From: a virus | Virus record (IMG/VR): IMGVR_UViG_3300034061_004429 | Span: 1-30,176 of that record | DNA length: 30,176 nt | Reading direction: 5' to 3' (one strand) | Program-made: the position numbers and the translations under genes | In this document: piece by piece, positions 5,350-28,448 of the stretch | Numbering within the stretch: the stretch's first letter is position 1 | Layout of the letters: each line of letters starts with the position of its first letter | Notes under the pieces: generated by a model | What the model saw: only the letters and a program-made list of their open reading frames with translations | Told to the model about the DNA's origin: nothing | Databases searched by the model: none

Positions 5350-5464
5350 AGTAGATCTCCTTGAGCAGTGCGTGTGTGAAGAAGAAAGTGACGAGGAAGA
5401 CGAGGGCCAAGAACCCCGGAGGGGTGGGAGCCGTCATCAGAAGAGAGAGGACGAAGAGCTTCAT
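5336..5464 (-). CDS. tiny membrane protein (42 aa)
   Basis: A 42-residue frame (MKLFVLSLLMTAPTPPGFLALVFLVTFFFTHALLKEIYYAHQ) whose ATG overlaps the upstream TAA as TAATG and whose end overlaps the next gene by 14 bases. It is almost entirely hydrophobic: a short N-terminal segment, a PTPPG turn and a membrane-spanning stretch at about residues 17-34, then a polar tail. It would insert in the host inner membrane. The tight tiling between two convincing genes and the coherent hydrophobic profile support it. The function is unknown. Confidence 0.65.
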   Translation of the reverse strand: MKLFVLSLLMTAPTPPGFLALVFLVTFFFTHALLKEIYYAHQ

Positions 5465-5682: not shown

Positions 5683-5705
5683 GCTGTTCTCCTTGATCAT
5701 GATTA

Positions 5706-5734
5706 AATCTACCACAAAGCCGTTAAATTGTCAA
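5706..5734 (-). promoter_or_regulatory. sigma70-like promoter with conserved ATGATCAAGGA start region
   Basis: A perfect TTGACA (5729-5734), a 17-bp spacer and TAGATT (5706-5711) on the minus strand. Transcription is predicted from about 5699, placing ATGATCAAGGAG at the very 5' end of the message, with AAGGAG serving as ribosome site for the gene starting at 5682. Confidence 0.8.
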
Positions 5735-5928
5735 CCCACCACGTTGAAGTGGAATTGGATACCCTCTTGCATGGCTTCCTGACCGACGAACACCGGGAAG
5801 AACCGACCCTCGTCGTTCTGCATGATGAAGTGGCGGAGGCGCTGAGCCCCGATCTTGGCCACTGCCTTGCGGGCGTTTTCCTTGGTGGCGTAGGTCTTGA
5901 CGGCCTCGATGGCGAATTCCCGGTTCAT
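5731..5928 (-). CDS. small early hypothetical protein (65 aa)
   Basis: A 65-residue protein (MNREFAIEAVKTYATKENARKAVAKIGAQRLRHFIMQNDEGRFFPVFVGQEAMQ...) with an alpha-helical first half followed by a beta-type GRFFPVFVG segment. Similar small proteins occur in T4-like marine phages, without known function. The start at 5928 is preceded by AAGGAAAGGAACGAC. An in-frame ATG at 5949 (MIKERND) again coincides with the predicted transcription start. It is monocistronic: its own promoter lies upstream, and another promoter lies immediately downstream, overlapping its stop codon. Confidence 0.75.
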   Translation of the reverse strand: MNREFAIEAVKTYATKENARKAVAKIGAQRLRHFIMQNDEGRFFPVFVGQEAMQEGIQFHFNVVG

Positions 5929-5954
5929 GTCGTTCCTTTCCTTGATCATGATTA

Positions 5955-5983
5955 AATCTACCATCGTTTTCATAAAATGTACA
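5955..5983 (-). promoter_or_regulatory. sigma70-like promoter for the 65-aa early gene
   Basis: TGTACA (5978-5983), 17-bp spacer, TAGATT (5955-5960) on the minus strand. The message would start near 5948-5949, at ATGATCAAGGA. It shares spacer length, -10 box and start region with the promoter at 5706-5734. Confidence 0.75.
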
Positions 5984-6014: not shown

Positions 6015-6109
6015 TCCAATAAGATCAATGCCTTAGACAGGATATAAAAGTCCAACAATATCAATGGCTTAGTCTATCTGGCGTAGTCCAATCAAATCAA
6101 TGGCTTAGA
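6015..6109 (+). repeat. three 23-bp direct repeats at exact 36-bp period
   Basis: Copies lie at 6015-6037, 6051-6073 and 6087-6109. All share the form TCCAA(y)(m)A(d)ATCAATGsCTTAG; the best-conserved core is ATCAATGGCTTAG, changed to ATCAATGCCTTAG in the first copy. Each start is 36 bp after the previous one, leaving 13-bp unrelated spacers. A degenerate fourth unit keeping AGATCA follows at about 6125. Two further copies lie at 23.7 kb. The array is in a gene-free region between divergently transcribed genes. Iterons of a replication origin or binding sites for a phage regulator are the most natural readings; neither is proven. Confidence 0.85.
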
Positions 6110-6250
6110 CGTACCGGTCTGGAGGCCCTCCAGATCACTCCAGAGGGCCGGTCTCCAAGGGCGGTATATAACCATTCTGGACCCTCTGGAGGGCTCCAGC
6201 GACCACCGGAAGAGACCCGGCTTTCCGGTATCCCCGGTTGACCCCCTGAG
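6110..6250. other. GC-rich structured intergenic segment
   Basis: No plausible gene. The segment is dense in inverted repeats: GGCCCTC (6124-6130) with GAGGGCC (6143-6149); CTGGAG (6119-6124), which can pair with CTCCAG at 6128-6133 or at 6138-6143; CTGGAG-GG-CTCCAG (6186-6199); and ACCGGAA (6205-6211) with TTCCGGT (6223-6229). The mutually exclusive pairings resemble a regulatory or structural RNA, or a recombination/origin element. The words CCATTCTGGA and AGATCACTC recur beside the second repeat cluster near 23.77-23.80 kb. No T-run follows the hairpins, so they are not ordinary terminators. Confidence 0.55.
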
Positions 6251-6271: not shown

Positions 6272-6300
6272 TGTACTCTAATAGCCCATCGTGTTAAGAT
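6272..6300 (+). promoter_or_regulatory. sigma70-like promoter for the plus-strand operon
   Basis: TGTACT (6272-6277), 17-bp spacer, TAAGAT (6295-6300). Transcription from about 6307 leaves a 13-base leader holding GGAG before the ATG at 6320. This rules out the more upstream in-frame ATGs as starts. Confidence 0.65.
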
Positions 6301-6319: not shown

Positions 6320-7477
6320 ATGGCAAAGCGACCTGCACGTTCACTCATCAAACTGAAGCCGAAGAAAGAGAAGAAGACCCGCTCCGAGGTCTACATGGTC
6401 AACCTGAAGTACCTCGGGGACGAGCCGACCTATAGGCCAGGTCAGGTGCTGACATTCTCAGAGAAGGCCCGAGCCTACACCTGGTACGGGTCAATGACCG
6501 ACATGTCCGACGCACGCGAGTGGCTGTCCGACTACCTCGGTACCAAGGGTCGCAAAGACGAAGTCAAGCGTCTGAAGTCGGTACCCGACAACCTGTTCCC
6601 TCATACCTGTGCCTGGATCGCCAGGATGGCCATGAAGGGAGTGGTGATCGACGAGGAGTCCAGCAAGTTCTTTGAGAAGCGCCTGAAGCTGGCGTTCGCG
6701 GCTCGCTCTACGGACGACGACAAGAAAGAAGAGAAGCCGACCGCGGAGAAGCCGAACATCCAGGACCGCATCAAGGACCGAGTCAACGACCTGATCGGCG
6801 ACCTCGAGGAGGTTCTCGACCGGCACTCGCGCGGCGAGATCAAGGAGTTTGACGCCTACGAGTTCTGTCAGAAAGCCGGCATCCCAGCCCAGCACGCCAC
6901 GAAGATGGCCGCGTACTACGTTGGCATGTACGACGAGCTCGAGCTGGCGATCGAGGGGTCCGACCCGCAGGTGAAAGAGGGGTACTCCTCCTACAGCAAG
7001 AAGTGGATCAAGGCCCGTCTCGAGTTCGTCGAGAAGATGATGGCCGACCTCCTGAGGTACTCCGGCAACGCCAAGAAGCTCAGGGCGCCGCGAAAGAAGA
7101 AGCCGATGTCGGTCGAGAAGAAGCTGAAGAACTTCAAGTTCAAGGCCGAGGACCAGGAGACGAAGCTGGCGTCGGTACCGCCCGAGCAGATCGTCGGGGC
7201 CCAGGAGCTCTGGACCTACAACGTAAAGTACAAGACCCTGTCGGTGTTCCGGGCCATCGACCGCGGCGGCCTCGACATCAAGAGGTCAAGCATCGTCAAC
7301 TTCGATGAGAAGACCACCATGACCCGCCGGACCGGCAGACAGGCCGAGAAGATCGTCCAGTCGGTACTGAGCGGCGGCAAGGTAGCCCTTCGTAAGGTCA
7401 TGGACGATCTGAAAGAGGCCGGCCTACAGGACCGCATAAATGAGAATACAATCTTGTTGAGGGTGATCAAGCAATGA
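6320..7477 (+). CDS. conserved T4-like phage protein, function unknown (385 aa)
   Basis: A 385-residue, highly charged, soluble protein. It has a basic N-terminus, a Lys/Glu-rich linker (about 140-165) followed by a long helical region, and a C-terminal domain with ELWTYNVKYKTLSVFRAIDRGGLDIKRSSIVNFDE that ends NENTILLRVIKQ. That C-terminal pattern recurs in an uncharacterised protein conserved across T4-like cyanophages. The start at 6320 is fixed by GGAG and by the promoter just upstream. It is the first gene of a plus-strand operon; its stop overlaps the next ATG (ATGA). The basic patches would suit nucleic-acid binding, but no catalytic motif is visible. Confidence 0.85.
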   Translation: MAKRPARSLIKLKPKKEKKTRSEVYMVNLKYLGDEPTYRPGQVLTFSEKARAYTWYGSMTDMSDAREWLSDYLGTKGRKDEVKRLKSVPDNLFPHTCAWIARMAMKGVVIDEESSKFFEKRLKLAFAARSTDDDKKEEKPTAEKPNIQDRIKDRVNDLIGDLEEVLDRHSRGEIKEFDAYEFCQKAGIPAQHATKMAAYYVGMYDELELAIEGSDPQVKEGYSSYSKKWIKARLEFVEKMMADLLRYSGNAKKLRAPRKKKPMSVEKKLKNFKFKAEDQETKLASVPPEQIVGAQELWTYNVKYKTLSVFRAIDRGGLDIKRSSIVNFDEKTTMTRRTGRQAEKIVQSVLSGGKVALRKVMDDLKEAGLQDRINENTILLRVIKQ

Positions 7478-9744: not shown

Positions 9745-11958
9745 TTAGACTAGGCAACCATCGGCAGTGCCGACGCACGCCGCGGCACCCATGGTATCCA
9801 CATCTATATACTTCTTCTCCACGAGGCTGTTCTCCCAGTCGACGTCGTCCACGAGGTTCTGCTGGATCTTCTCCCACTTGTGGAGGAGGAACACGTCCTT
9901 GAGGCAGTACTCTGCCTGCTTGGCGTCGCCCTTGAAGTAGTTCTCGGCGAACTTCTTGAAGCGGCGGATCCAGTCCTTCTTCAGGAGGAAGTTGGAGTCG
10001 TCGCTGCTGATGTCGATGTCCCTGTTCTGGGCGGTCATGCAGGCGACCCAGAGGTTGTCGAACGCCTTGAGCCCGTCGACCACGAGGCCGGAGGCGAACA
10101 CCGAGCCGGTGCCGTAGGTCTTCACGATCTCCTTGGCGTCGATCACCTTCGTGTTCGGGGCCTGGGCGTAGTCCTTGTCGCCGGTCATGGCGAGGAACGA
10201 GATGCCCGCGAAGTTGGCGCGGTTCTCGTAGACGTACTCGGCCACCTCGTCCCAGTCGTCCACGATGACCGTGTTGGACACGTTGTGACGGATGCCCTTG
10301 TCGGCGCAGAGCTTCTCGTCAGTACCCGCGTTGACCCAGTGCTTCTGGGCCTTGGCGATGAGCTCGAGGTGCTTGATGCCGATGGTGTCGTCCTTGTACA
10401 GCGACCCCTTCTTCGGGACCACCGGGAACGAGATGACGTAGTCGGTCCTGCCCGCGGACCACACCGACTCCTCGACCATGTGCGGGTTCAGCTTCTTGAT
10501 GAGGCGCGCGACCTCGGTGTCCTTGTTCAGCTGGATGTTGCGGATGTACATCGGCGAGTGGTCCGCGTGGATGCCCGACGCGGTCATAAGAAGGACAGAA
10601 GCGTTACCACTAGGTTTAACGCAAGTGGTACGAGCAGCGGGGTTAATACCAATAAGAGCAGCCACAGCCCTATTTGTGGATCGTACTGTGGTGGCTCCGG
10701 CCTCGAGGATCTTCTCATCGAACAGCGTCCTTGGGTTGTTCATCCAACCCGTAATGGAGACGCCAAGCAGCGCCTCCCTATCGAAGATGCGCTTGCTCGT
10801 CTCGTCCAGGAACTTGAAGTTGGTGTAGCCGGCCTGTAGAGTTCCCAGGATGGACGCCGCCTTGCAGGCCCTCTGGAAAGTCACTTCGTCGGAACACATA
10901 CCTCCGTTGATCTCAGTCAGGTTGCATCCCTGCCACCCCGACTTGCCGTCGATCTGCGGGTACATCCCGATCTCGACGCATGGATTTGTAGTGTGCTCGG
11001 TGGACTCGACGAATACGAAGCCGGGTTCACCGAACTGCTTGATGCTCTGCATCAGCTGCATGAACTGCTCTTTGCTTGTGGTCTTTCGAACGATGACTGC
11101 GGAGTTGTTCGAGCGTCCACGCTGCGGATTATCGATGAACCAGTTGCCCGTCTTGGCCTTGGCCATCTCGTCGTCATCGGGCGAGAATAGGCAGATGGTC
11201 GCCGATCGACGCACGCCACCCGACAGGACTGCGTCGGCCGCGTGCATCACGGTGTCGTACACGTGGATCGGCTTCATCTTGGCCTCCTTCTCGGACATGA
11301 GGACCATGCTGGTCAGGAGGTGCTCGATGCGGTCGAGGGCTCGGCGGAGCGGATCCGGGCCGGGTGCCATGAAGCCACCGGAGATCTTTGCTCCCTTCGG
11401 CCTGATCTGGTTCAGGTCGAAGTACACCTTGCGTCCCGCGTACTCCGGGTATTTACCGCCGTCCTTGAAGAAGCTGGACATGAGGACGTCGAGGGCCGTC
11501 GCCCATCCCTCGATGGAGTCCTCCACGATGTGGGTCTTGGGCTGCTTGGTGCGCGGCGCGATCACCGGCATCTTCTCGACGTGGTGCTTCTGTACGGAGA
11601 AGCCGGCGCCGGCGCCGCAGAGGAGGATGTAGAAGATCTCACCGAAGAACGACGGGCGGTCGGCGTACGACGACGTGCAGTTGTACATCTTCATCTGGTG
11701 CTTCAGCAGCTGCTCACCGCCGAACTGGAGGGCGCGCTGGGCACCGAGGACGAGCTTGTCCTTGTACGCGGCCTCGGCGAAGTCGATGGCCTCCTCGAGC
11801 TCGGGAGACATCTTGTCTCTATAGAACTCGCGGTGCATGTTCATCACCCGCTCCACCGACTCGTCCCAGGTCTCGTAGCGTCCCTTGTCCTCGTCGAACC
11901 TGGAATACGATTCATAGAACTTGGTGTCAGAGAGTAGTTTGCGCGTGTCTGCGTACAT
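9745..11958 (-). CDS. nrdJ: adenosylcobalamin-dependent class II ribonucleoside-triphosphate reductase
   Basis: A 737-residue protein, nearly the same length as the monomeric Lactobacillus leichmannii enzyme (739 aa). Visible active-site features are Cys94 in KMYNCTSSY, the thiyl-radical motif NPCVEI (Asn, Cys, Glu) with a second cysteine 19 residues on in GWQGCNLTE, a GGVRRSATICLFS segment and GNASVLL. The C-terminus ends ACVGTADGCLV with a cysteine pair that would shuttle electrons, probably from glutaredoxin or thioredoxin. It makes dNTPs from NTPs using vitamin B12 coenzyme and needs no oxygen. AAGGAG precedes the ATG, 12 bases after the primase stop, so both probably share the promoter at 13037-13065. 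No B12 riboswitch fits in that gap. Confidence 0.93.
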   Translation of the reverse strand: MYADTRKLLSDTKFYESYSRFDEDKGRYETWDESVERVMNMHREFYRDKMSPELEEAIDFAEAAYKDKLVLGAQRALQFGGEQLLKHQMKMYNCTSSYADRPSFFGEIFYILLCGAGAGFSVQKHHVEKMPVIAPRTKQPKTHIVEDSIEGWATALDVLMSSFFKDGGKYPEYAGRKVYFDLNQIRPKGAKISGGFMAPGPDPLRRALDRIEHLLTSMVLMSEKEAKMKPIHVYDTVMHAADAVLSGGVRRSATICLFSPDDDEMAKAKTGNWFIDNPQRGRSNNSAVIVRKTTSKEQFMQLMQSIKQFGEPGFVFVESTEHTTNPCVEIGMYPQIDGKSGWQGCNLTEINGGMCSDEVTFQRACKAASILGTLQAGYTNFKFLDETSKRIFDREALLGVSITGWMNNPRTLFDEKILEAGATTVRSTNRAVAALIGINPAARTTCVKPSGNASVLLMTASGIHADHSPMYIRNIQLNKDTEVARLIKKLNPHMVEESVWSAGRTDYVISFPVVPKKGSLYKDDTIGIKHLELIAKAQKHWVNAGTDEKLCADKGIRHNVSNTVIVDDWDEVAEYVYENRANFAGISFLAMTGDKDYAQAPNTKVIDAKEIVKTYGTGSVFASGLVVDGLKAFDNLWVACMTAQNRDIDISSDDSNFLLKKDWIRRFKKFAENYFKGDAKQAEYCLKDVFLLHKWEKIQQNLVDDVDWENSLVEKKYIDVDTMGAAACVGTADGCLV

Positions 11959-23379: not shown

Positions 23380-23406
23380 ATTTTCACGTTCCTTGATCAT
23401 GATAGA

Positions 23407-23435
23407 ATACTATCACAGTTCCACTAAATTGTCAA
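23407..23435 (-). promoter_or_regulatory. sigma70-like promoter for the 62-aa early gene
   Basis: Perfect TTGACA (23430-23435), 17-bp spacer, TAGTAT (23407-23412) on the minus strand. Transcription near 23400 begins with ATGATCAAGGAAC, the same start element as at 5.7 and 5.95 kb. Confidence 0.75.
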
Positions 23436-23441
23436 CCGCTA

Positions 23442-23618
23442 TTAGCGGACGTAGGTGTGGCCCTTGGAGCCGTGGAGCATCCGGAGCCTGAGGGCCCAGA
23501 TGTCGGCCTTCTTGGTGGTCTTGGGTTCTACCCGGTTGATGGTCCCACCGGACTGGATGTAGTTCTGGACGGCGAGGATGGCGTCGGCGGGGATCTTCTT
23601 GGCGGCGTGGTTGATCAT
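23442..23618 (-). CDS. small basic early protein (58 aa)
   Basis: A 58-residue frame (MINHAAKKIPADAILAVQNYIQSGGTINRVEPKTTKKADIWALRLRMLHGSKGHTYVR). It has a helix, then a basic second half resembling a small nucleic-acid-binding or inhibitor-type protein; no family is recognised. The start at 23618 follows AAGGAACGGAGC. A clear promoter lies upstream at 23646-23674 and another immediately downstream, so it is monocistronic. Codon use, with third-position C and G, matches the neighbouring genes, which supports it as coding. Confidence 0.75.
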   Translation of the reverse strand: MINHAAKKIPADAILAVQNYIQSGGTINRVEPKTTKKADIWALRLRMLHGSKGHTYVR

Positions 23619-23645
23619 TTTAGCTCCGTTCCTTGATTATGATTA

Positions 23646-23674
23646 AATCTACCACAGTTCTACTAAAATGTACA
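23646..23674 (-). promoter_or_regulatory. sigma70-like promoter for the 58-aa early gene
   Basis: TGTACA (23669-23674), 17-bp spacer, TAGATT (23646-23651) on the minus strand. The message would begin near 23639 with ATAATCAAGGA, a one-base variant of the ATGATCAAGGA element that removes the AUG. Confidence 0.75.
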
Positions 23675-23706: not shown

Positions 23707-23767
23707 TCCAATCAAATCAATGGCTTAGAAAGACCGGCAGAAAGCCTAACAAGATCAATGGCTTAGA
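23707..23767 (+). repeat. second cluster of the 23-bp repeat (two copies)
   Basis: Copies at 23707-23729 and 23745-23767 are 38 bp apart. The first is identical over the 23 bp to the copy at 6087-6109, and the shared core is ATCAATGGCTTAGA. A degenerate unit keeping AGATCACTC follows 36 bp further on, at about 23781. The rest of the gap from 23675 to 23884 holds only the AT-rich promoter flank, CCATTCTGGA and CCGGT-type inverted repeats also seen at 6.1 kb, and the terminator at 23836-23863. Confidence 0.85.
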
Positions 23768-23835: not shown

Positions 23836-23863
23836 AACTGAAAAGGGGCGCCGTAGCGCCCCT
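23836..23863 (-). terminator. intrinsic terminator with UACG tetraloop
   Basis: On the minus strand AGGGGCGC and GCGCCCCT form a perfect 8-bp stem closed by C(TACG)G, a stable UNCG-type tetraloop, followed by TTTCAGTTT. It lies about 20 bases after the stop of the winged-helix gene at 23885. Confidence 0.88.
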
Positions 23864-23884
23864 CCAGATCACCGTGCCAGAAGC

Positions 23885-24094
23885 TTACGATCCCATACGG
23901 TAGTAGAGGACCTCGCGGCCGTTCACGATCCGACGATTCGAGTAGATCCGGAAACCCTCGTTGCGAAGGTCGTGGATGCGCTTCATGACCGAGTCACGCG
24001 GGACCTTGGTGTCCGAGGCGATCCGCGAGGCGGTCACGCCGGGGGACTTCGGGCGCTTGGACAGGTAGTTGAAGACGCGATTGATCTGTGCCAT
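23885..24094 (-). CDS. winged helix-turn-helix protein, candidate regulator
   Basis: A 69-residue protein (MAQINRVFNYLSKRPKSPGVTASRIASDTKVPRDSVMKRIHDLRNEGFRIYSNRRIVNGREVLYYRMGS) that reads as a compact winged helix. Helices at about 3-12 and 20-28 are followed by the recognition helix VPRDSVMKRIHDLRNEG, then a beta wing (FRIYSNRRIVNGREVLYYRM). It probably binds DNA and could regulate phage promoters or the nearby repeats. The ATG at 24094 has GGAG in front; an ATG five codons upstream does not. It has its own promoter and terminator, so it is a monocistronic unit. Confidence 0.8.
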   Translation of the reverse strand: MAQINRVFNYLSKRPKSPGVTASRIASDTKVPRDSVMKRIHDLRNEGFRIYSNRRIVNGREVLYYRMGS

Positions 24095-24154
24095 ACTGTA
24101 GTTCTCCATGGTTTGCTTTGACTTGAGAGCTCATTCGCTGCTCTCTACTTTTCC

Positions 24155-24201: not shown

Positions 24202-24277
24202 TGGCGATCCCTGCAGGACTCGAACCTGCGACACCCTGTTTAGAAGACAGGGACTCTATCCACTGAGCTAAGGGACC
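24202..24277 (-). tRNA. tRNA-Arg (UCU)
   Basis: A 76-base cloverleaf with encoded CCA. The acceptor GGTCCCT pairs with AGGGATC (one G-U); the anticodon stem CCTGT/ACAGG closes the loop CTTCTAA (anticodon UCU); the T arm GCAGG/CCTGC carries TTCGAGT. It reads AGA and AGG. Its first ten bases overlap the end of the upstream fusion gene. Confidence 0.95.
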
Positions 24278-26009: not shown

Positions 26010-26084
26010 TGGTGCGCCCGGTAGGACTCGAACCTACACTCAGACAGTTATGAGCTGTCAGCTTCACCTTTAAGCTACAGGCGC
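26010..26084 (-). tRNA. tRNA with CAU anticodon (Met, or Ile2 if lysidine-modified)
   Basis: A 75-base cloverleaf with encoded CCA. The acceptor GCGCCTG pairs with CGGGCGC; the anticodon stem GACAG/CTGTC closes CTCATAA (anticodon CAU); the T stem GTAGG/CCTAC carries TTCGAGT. CAU may be elongator Met or Ile2; sequence alone does not settle this. It abuts the next tRNA with no spacer. Confidence 0.93.
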
Positions 26085-26160
26085 TGGTACCCCCTGTCAG
26101 ATTCGAACTGACCCTGAAACGATTTTAAGTCGTCTTCCTCTACCGCTGGGATAAGGGGGC
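26085..26160 (-). tRNA. tRNA with UAA anticodon on a short-variable-loop body
   Basis: A 76-base cloverleaf with encoded CCA. The acceptor GCCCCCT pairs with AGGGGGT; the anticodon stem GACGA/TCGTT closes CTTAAAA (anticodon UAA, formally Leu); the variable loop is only TCAGG; the T arm is GTCAG/CTGAC. Bacterial leucine tRNAs normally have a long variable arm, so the identity is uncertain. Its 3' end directly touches the CAU tRNA. Confidence 0.85.
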
Positions 26161-26163
26161 GAT

Positions 26164-26255
26164 TGGTGGGCGTGTAGGGATTCGAACCCTAGCGAGAACA
26201 CCGATCTAGTGCTAAAGGGTTTATAAGTCCCTCCGGGCCACCTGGCCACACGCCC
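26164..26255 (-). tRNA. type II tRNA with atypical anticodon loop (CTTATAA)
   Basis: A 92-base tRNA-like gene with encoded CCA. The acceptor GGGCGTG/CACGCCC is perfect; the T stem TAGGG/CCCTA carries TTCGAAT; the long variable arm AGCAC/GTGTT is clear. The anticodon arm AGGG/CCCT ends in an A-A mismatch around CTTATAA, giving UAU if standard. Type II bodies are normally Leu, Ser or Tyr, and the D arm is also irregular, so it may be degenerate. Confidence 0.75.
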
Positions 26256-27075: not shown

Positions 27076-28448
27076 ACCAGCATCTTCAGCTTGTCCTTCA
27101 GGGACTCCCTTGTATCCCTGCCCATGTCGGTCCTGTCGAACACCGGTCCCTCGAGGAGGTTCTCCTGGGCACCCTGCTCCACGTCGTAGAACTTCATCTT
27201 AGCGCGGTCGACGCCCACGATGAACCTCTTGTTCTTGTTGGGATCGCCGTACCTGTTCTTCAGCTGCTTGACCATGACCTGGTTCATGTCGGCGAGCTCC
27301 TCGGTGGAGATCAGGGCGATCATGAAGTCGGCAGTGGCCGGGAGGCCGAAGGACTCGGACGTGTCTGTCAGGTCGACGTCGCTCGACGAGTAGCCGGTAC
27401 GCGTCGTCTGGGTAGCGGAGATGATCGGCACCCCGAACTCCACTGCCATACCTCTGATCTCCTCGGCGATCGACTTGATCAGGGTGTACGAGTTGACCTG
27501 TGACCCGGCCTTGATGCGCGAGCTCGAGCAGATGTTCAGGTAGTCGATGTAGATCACGTCGGGCACGAAGTTCTTCTTCAGGGCCAGCTCGTTCAGCAGG
27601 GACCTGAAGTGGTGCGTGGATGCCGAGGCGGTCGGGTACTCCTTGATGATGAGCTTGCCGACTGTCATCTCCTTCAGCTTGTTCACCTTCTTCCTGTAGG
27701 TCTCGCGCGGCAGAGTCGTGAGCTCGTCCAGGTTGGTGTTGAGCAGGTTCGCGTCGATCCTCTTGGCGATCTCCTGCTCGGCCATTTCCATGGTGATGTA
27801 GAGGACGTTCTTACCCAGTACCAGGTTACCCGCGGCGCAGTGGCACATGAACATGGTCTTACCGACGCCGGTACCCGCCAGGATGATGTTCAGGGTCTTC
27901 CTGGGGATGCCGCCGTTCGTGATCTCGTTCATGTACGCCAGGTCGAACGGCAGGCGAGCTTCCTTCTTGTGATAGAAGTCGTACCGCGAGTCCGTGTCCT
28001 CGAGGTAGTCGTGGCCGACGCTCGTGTCGAACGTGACGGCTAGGGCCTCCTGCAGGATGTGGGGGATGGCTCCCTTGTCGACGCCCTTAGTGCTGCCGTC
28101 CATGATCTGGATCGACTTCGACACCGCGTTGTAGAGCGCCTTGTCTTGACAGAACTTCTCCGTGTTCTGTACCAGCCACTCCATACCGGACTCGTCCCGC
28201 TTGAGGTTCTCGATGACGCCCCGAGTTCCCTTGAAGGCGATCTCGTTCAGACCGCTCGAGTTCTCGAGCTCGATCAACAGTGCCTCCTTGGAGGGGAGCC
28301 CGTTAAACTTGTTGACGTACTCCGACACGAGCTTGTACGTCAGGCGATGAGAGCCGTCGCCGAAGTACTCCTCGCGTAGGAACGGGAGAACTTTCCTGGC
28401 GTACTCTTCGTTGTGCGCCAGGTTAGAGAGGATTACCTCTTCGATCAT
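27072..28448 (-). CDS. 41: T4 gp41-like replicative DNA helicase (DnaB family)
   Basis: A 458-residue protein (T4 gp41 is 475). An N-terminal helical domain (1-165) is followed by a RecA-type core with Walker A LAGTGVGKT (190-198), the Glu after strand beta-2 (LYITMEMAEQE), Walker B DVIYIDYLNIC, the sensor SATQTTRTGY and the arginine-finger region KQLKNRYGDPNKNKRFIVGVDRAKMKFYD. It unwinds DNA 5'-3' as a hexamer and recruits the gp61-like primase. The ATG follows GAGGAG, which is formed by the last codons of uvsX, so the two are co-expressed. Confidence 0.95.
   Translation of the reverse strand: MIEEVILSNLAHNEEYARKVLPFLREEYFGDGSHRLTYKLVSEYVNKFNGLPSKEALLIELENSSGLNEIAFKGTRGVIENLKRDESGMEWLVQNTEKFCQDKALYNAVSKSIQIMDGSTKGVDKGAIPHILQEALAVTFDTSVGHDYLEDTDSRYDFYHKKEARLPFDLAYMNEITNGGIPRKTLNIILAGTGVGKTMFMCHCAAGNLVLGKNVLYITMEMAEQEIAKRIDANLLNTNLDELTTLPRETYRKKVNKLKEMTVGKLIIKEYPTASASTHHFRSLLNELALKKNFVPDVIYIDYLNICSSSRIKAGSQVNSYTLIKSIAEEIRGMAVEFGVPIISATQTTRTGYSSSDVDLTDTSESFGLPATADFMIALISTEELADMNQVMVKQLKNRYGDPNKNKRFIVGVDRAKMKFYDVEQGAQENLLEGPVFDRTDMGRDTRESLKDKLKMLV

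Follow-up and report, generated by a model that had tools for sequence, protein, structure and literature searches.

Two arrays of direct repeats lie upstream of predicted minus-strand promoters

The window, the whole stretch of 30,176 nucleotides of viral DNA that was analysed, contains two arrays of short direct repeats, one of three copies and one of two (Table 1). Array 1 occupies the intergenic region between a small minus-strand gene and a divergent plus-strand gene, the latter being common to T4-type phages of alphaproteobacteria, Stenotrophomonas phages and large Pseudomonas phages. For the small gene, MNREF was taken as the start, since the predicted transcription start is downstream of the ORF start in the list (5973). 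The original prediction had described three 23-bp repeats at an exact 36-bp period with unrelated 13-bp spacers, beside GC-rich hairpins and between outward-facing promoters, an observation that was borne out. The starts at 6015, 6051 and 6087 were verified, with a pairwise identity of 19–20/23 between the repeats and only 4/13 between the spacers; the flanks of array 1 are GC-rich and foldable (z about −2.3 to −2.5). Promoter-like sequences point outward from the array: TGTACA-17-TAGATT for the minus strand and, picked out by eye, the weaker TGTACT-17-TAAGAT for the plus strand. The same prediction called for a search for the core, which across the window returned two further copies in the same orientation, with cores at 23716 and 23754 (a spacing of 38 bp), and no copy on the opposite strand. 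All five sites are outside called genes.

Table 1. Positions of the repeats, promoters, genes and structures in the window
Feature	Position	Strand	Remarks
Repeat copy 1, IHF-type core ATCAATGCCTTAG	6015–6037 (core 6024–6036)	+	centre −81 from predicted minus-strand start; 22.0 bits
Repeat copy 2, core ATCAATGGCTTAG	6051–6073 (core 6060–6072)	+	AAAA at −14 to −11; centre −117; 29.2 bits
Repeat copy 3, core ATCAATGGCTTAG	6087–6109 (core 6096–6108)	+	centre −153; 24.3 bits
Array 2, site 1	23707–23729 (core 23716–23728)	+	centre −82 from its own minus-strand promoter; 28.9 bits
Array 2, site 2	23745–23767 (core 23754–23766)	+	centre −120; 24.0 bits
Predicted promoter of array 1, TGTACA-17-TAGATT	5955–5983	−	predicted to drive the small gene ending at 5731
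Predicted promoter of array 2, TGTACA-17-TAGATT	23646–23674	−	predicted to drive gene 23442–23618
Small protein gene downstream of array 1	5731–5928	−	matches PHROG 3633 weakly
Gene for a 58-aa protein, downstream of array 2	23442–23618	−	
Divergent gene, PHROG 11903	6320–7477	+	unknown function
Candidate divergent promoter TGTACT-17-TAAGAT	6272–6300	+	read by eye; not called by promoter scan
GC-rich inverted repeats	6118–6196		between array 1 and plus-strand gene
Strong hairpin followed by T-run	23846–23864	−	probable terminator of winged-helix gene; borders array 2

We scanned the 30 kb with a motif matrix built from 221 non-redundant viral sites, from which the window family was left out. 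The results showed that exactly these five sites were recovered, at 22.0–29.2 bits, with the next best site at 7.0 bits; in 200 Markov-simulated windows the top motif score had a mean of 8.1 and a highest value of 16.7.

Four related minus-strand promoters in the window share a common leader, which on the plus strand reads TCCTTGATCATGATTAAATCTACCA or nearly so, at 5690–5714, 5939–5963, 23390–23413 and 23625–23650. The −35 box is TGTACA at the two that bear arrays, and the better TTGACA at the two without arrays. The TGTACA box of the array-1 promoter is also present in the relatives L006 and L009, and at the candidate divergent promoter the relatives L006–L009 carry TGTACA-17-TAAGAT. The intergenic region of these relatives (about 75% protein identity) has just one site, at −93, and in two others, L028 and L057, sites are found at −70 and −103. 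Within the window family the nearest-site centres are at −70, −82 and −93.

A DNA similarity search of the array region against named phages gave no match, and none of the window genes examined could be recognised as an integrase. The window also encodes a ribonucleotide reductase (9745–11958) with 62% identity to that of Rhizobium phage RHph_I1_18, a phage without the core motif, and four tRNA genes (Arg, Met, Leu, Ile) at 24202–24277 and 26010–26255.

The repeat core matches the IHF consensus

The IHF protein recognises the consensus WATCARNNNNTTR within a 35-bp site that it bends by about 160 degrees, and most strong sites carry an upstream A-tract (PMC8421141). Judged by its bases, the array core ATCAANNRSTTAG with its 5′ A-tract matches this published consensus. 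Three matches to WATCARNNNNTTR occur in the 30-kb window, all within the two arrays, so that three of the five sites agree strictly, and those at 6024 and 23754 differ only by a G at W. The A-tract is clear at 6060 (TAAAA) and 23754 (AGAAA), the sites at 6024 and 23716 are AT-rich at this position, and the tract is absent at 6096.

The consensus of the 221 viral sites reads A-tract(−15..−11)-YCCWWTRAA-ATCAA-NNRS-TTAG-C. Since a fixed core served as the seed of this motif, the core columns are exact by construction, and independent evidence comes only from the flanks, the centre and the partner sites. In the flanks, the A fraction of the viral sites is 0.57 at −15..−11 versus 0.30 on both sides (p about 1e-17). 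A search with a free centre showed, among the matches listed, that the four central bases vary, with a preference for NN-purine-C/G. In 32 partner sites off the search pattern, the C, A and TT were invariant and the variation fell at W, R and N, positions at which IHF tolerates change. The conserved TTAG, the NNRS bias and the CC at −8/−7 go beyond the classical IHF consensus. T4 MotA boxes were set aside as a candidate, as the variable NNRS positions do not match.

The best matrix match in the attP-int region of phage lambda is AATCAACTACTTAG at 27618–27605, beside the annotated int 1/int 2 sites, and we take it to be IHF site H1 of the attP P arm. It fits the array consensus exactly. At the H′ position of lambda, an A6 tract occupies −15..−10, the same register as the A-tract of the array sites. 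The lambda H1 and H′ sites serve a recombination complex with integrase, whereas the window sites are in tandem and at promoters. The known IHF site of lambda pL scores only 6.2 bits, third in its region, and the matrix is therefore no general IHF detector.

Spacing within the arrays is stepped and sites are phased to promoters

Spacing between neighbouring sites falls into steps of 24–29, 34–38, 42–48 and 51–53 bp, with almost none at 30–33 bp. In the window the spacings are 36, 36 and 38 bp, compared with 35 bp for the length of an IHF site, and other phages also have sites at 24–29 bp. The original prediction equated 36 bp with about 3.4 helical turns, which would place successive sites on different faces of the helix; the arithmetic is right, and the offset is not arbitrary, since 34–38 bp is the commonest spacing class.

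A strong opposite-strand promoter upstream, as in the window, was found for 27 of 74 non-redundant arrays with at least two sites, versus 11% of control stretches. For arrays in this orientation, the promoter distances cluster near 48–51, 58–59, 69–71 and 80–81 bp (p about 2e-4 after de-duplication, by statistics that ignore the relatedness of loci). Among same-orientation arrays outside phage DLP6, phasing was not significant (13 loci, p about 0.1). The window family, DLP6 and the other window-orientation arrays each show a preferred helical phase of the sites upstream of promoters. For a bend to act on polymerase, its rotational position at the promoter has to be fixed in this way.

Predicted action of host IHF at the arrays

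It is probable, as far as sequence can tell, that each repeat is a site for host IHF and that the array bends the DNA upstream of the promoter and raises minus-strand transcription. Array 1 would then bind as many as three IHF dimers, arranged head to tail at 36-bp intervals and each with a bend of about 160 degrees, and array 2 would bind two. The phage promoter has a poor −35 box (TGTACA), and the nearest IHF would have its centre some 82 bp upstream of it; the bent array could offer upstream DNA to RNA polymerase, leading to more transcription of the minus-strand genes. The computation shows the identity in sequence to IHF sites, the register of the A-tract, the stepped spacing, the helical phase relative to promoters, the wide distribution and the lack of a phage DNABII gene in the records searched; that the binder is IHF, that all sites are occupied at once and that the effect is activating is what we infer from this. 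Activation appears most likely in view of the poor −35 boxes of the promoters that bear arrays. Simultaneous full occupancy is doubtful where other phages have spacings of 24–29 bp, shorter than the 35-bp IHF site. The G at W in two sites, the bases beyond the classical consensus, the lack of an exact core in the closest named T4-type relatives and the single site of L006–L009 weigh against the IHF reading.

In phage lambda, IHF activates pL from a site near −86 through the alpha subunit of polymerase, and transcription is raised through bent upstream DNA. The window resembles this system in a predicted sharp bend about 80–90 bp upstream of an early promoter, its nearest sites being at −81/−82. 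It is unlike pL in that two or three strictly spaced sites follow one another, that the motif is extended and much stronger, and that the arrays occur in virulent T4-superfamily phages.

The extended motif, which is longer and stricter than the classical consensus, would also suit the operators of another sequence-specific protein, either of the host or a diffusely spread phage regulator, whose site is merely IHF-like, and so would the common 24–29 bp spacing, too tight for two full 35-bp IHF sites. We regard this as unlikely, because the A-tract in the H′ register, the identical site in lambda attP, the locations at tRNA ends and integrases (see below) and the pattern of substitutions fit IHF.

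Equivalent sites in phage DLP6

For the cultured T4-like Stenotrophomonas phage DLP6, 25 'phage promoters' have been described, 22 of them in pairs (PMC5349666). These seem to be the same motif as the arrays, an equation resting on the matching number, pairing and location given there, and the arrays would thereby reinterpret the paired 'phage promoters'. The DLP6 sites have the core ATCAACGACTTA[GC] and, as in the window, are grouped and stand upstream of gene clusters; the pair spacing, however, is 25–26 bp, and relative to the promoter most sites point the other way from those in the window. Pairs are present at about 15 separate transcription units. In 14 of 14 pairs, the distance to the −10 element was 39/40, 49/50 or 60 bp, which corresponds to whole helical turns (R=0.97; the Rayleigh p-values assume independent loci, and the DLP6 copies are paralogous). 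These distance classes are kept although the intervening sequence differs. At DLP6 34664–34726, three reverse-orientation sites stand ahead of a plus-strand TTTACT/TATAAT promoter, so array orientation is not fixed.

A further reading takes the repeats themselves for phage-specific promoters, in line with the label that the equivalent motif received from the DLP6 authors (PMC5349666). It agrees with their position ahead of DLP6 gene clusters, where they are mostly read in the gene direction. However, every DLP6 pair examined has a sigma-70-type −10 box (TATAAT, TATACT or TATGAT) 39–60 bp downstream and in helical phase with it, in most cases together with a TTTACT-like −35 box; the sites can point either way at the neighbouring promoter, and the same core is found in lambda attP and at tRNA ends, all of which makes this reading very improbable.

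The original prediction offered iterons, operators or sites of a nucleoid-like protein, and of these the last is supported, in the form of host IHF. Short direct repeats of constant period in an AT-rich strip beside hairpins do resemble the iterons of a phage replication origin, but two arrays occur in 30 kb and about 15 in DLP6, each at and phased to a promoter and not in a single origin-linked cluster; in addition, the same core lies outside phages at tRNA ends, and a 500-bp profile gave no clear GC-skew switch at the array. We give iterons very little credence.

Distribution among phages and the likely binder

Two cores 10–40 bp apart were found in 49 stretches of viral contigs, where chance would give an estimated number far below one, and a relaxed pattern with the four central bases free found at least 120 viral stretches. 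A T4-type capsid gene (gp23) was present in 6 of 15 large array-bearing contigs and was not seen in the other nine, and Rhodobacter phage RcHartney also has a tandem pair, so the module extends beyond a single family. Named phages bearing arrays or sites, such as DLP6, RcHartney and Mica, have proteobacterial hosts.

The exact core was absent from the closest named T4-type relatives RHph_I1_18, Cr30, phiM12, OC and pf16, and likewise from T4, KVP40, S-PM2 and phiPMW, and HTVC008M has one. A universal T4-superfamily element is rejected on these counts. The statement that no such element is standard for T4 thus holds for T4 itself, with no matches, and fails for the T4 superfamily, of which DLP6 and several gp23-bearing contigs have the arrays.

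The 74-aa winged-helix protein encoded at 23885–24109 had been put forward as the binder. Its gene adjoins array 2 and homologues exist in two other array-bearing contigs, but only 4 of 22 phage records have the protein; it is missing from DLP6 and from 13 of the 15 other large array-bearing contigs (several incomplete), and the arrays occur in many unrelated phages. The repeats are thus most improbable as its operators. No DNABII (IHF/HU) gene was detected in the 22 phage records, several of them incomplete, while control genomes gave the expected signal. Together with the scarcity of the winged-helix protein, this makes a host protein the simplest binder, and the binder is most likely the host's.

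For the reading as host-IHF sites, the occurrence of the same paired or tripled sites in many unrelated phages suggests that lytic phages may widely use IHF to drive genes. IHF is known chiefly as a helper of temperate phages and integrases. We tentatively propose, at somewhat less than even chances, that many phages, virulent T4-superfamily members included, have converged on a module of at least two strong IHF sites with stepped spacing, phased to a promoter, that ties transcription to the host IHF level. If true, it would be a common and overlooked host dependency of lytic phages. In a Salmonella screen, IHF mutants resisted the lytic phages FelixO1 and Aji_GE, and the explanation is not settled (PMC8744999). 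Promoter-phased IHF-type arrays are a concrete possible route to such dependence, although FelixO1 showed no clear arrays: a scan of its genome gave one high scorer in a gene and one in a non-coding gap, and FelixO1 was consequently left out as support.

IHF sites, IHF-aided phage promoters and the DLP6 repeats (as 'phage promoters') are already known. In the open-access literature searched, we found no papers with TCAATGACTTAG or CTAAGTCATTGAT, and none that identified such repeats with IHF sites or reported tandem arrays in lytic phages with this phasing. Where a viral contig has no host in culture, the motif can serve to flag its regulated promoters.

Occurrences in bacterial chromosomes

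Tandem pairs are rare in bacterial and archaeal genomes, where a pair pattern of equal stringency matched only 13 stretches in 257 billion bases. The idea that the core is unique to phages was dropped, since proteobacterial genomes also showed a several-fold enrichment over the reversed control. In 10 of 40 sampled proteobacterial occurrences, the core started a few bases past a tRNA 3′ end, versus 0 of 20 permuted-core controls, and 14 of the 40 were in long open frames, versus 15 of 20 controls. In Burkholderia phage Mica, the core adjoins the integrase gene directly after an apparent tRNA 3′ end, where ARAGORN found no whole tRNA. Locations at tRNA ends and beside integrases are expected, being places where IHF works with integrases. 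Matches in Vibrio and Aeromonas are single sites.

A conserved pair of cores is present in Burkholderiales chromosomes (L180, L183, L189 and L190); the pair of L180, at 5379–5445, is upstream of mraZ, where the cell-division gene cluster begins. The two cores are 54 bp apart and, as in the window, opposite to the gene orientation, but they belong to a chromosomal cell-division operon and not to a phage. Three cores come immediately after a tRNA-Met gene in Dyadobacter (L188, 4854–4917), with the look of an attachment site. On one contig of an Alteromonadaceae genome bin, cores are clustered in groups of four to six with spacings of 18 and 28 bp (L178 2925–3035, L179 2807–2871, L186 4000–4110), and in a Cytophagales genome seven cores recur with a period of exactly 42 bp (L184, 5787–6039).
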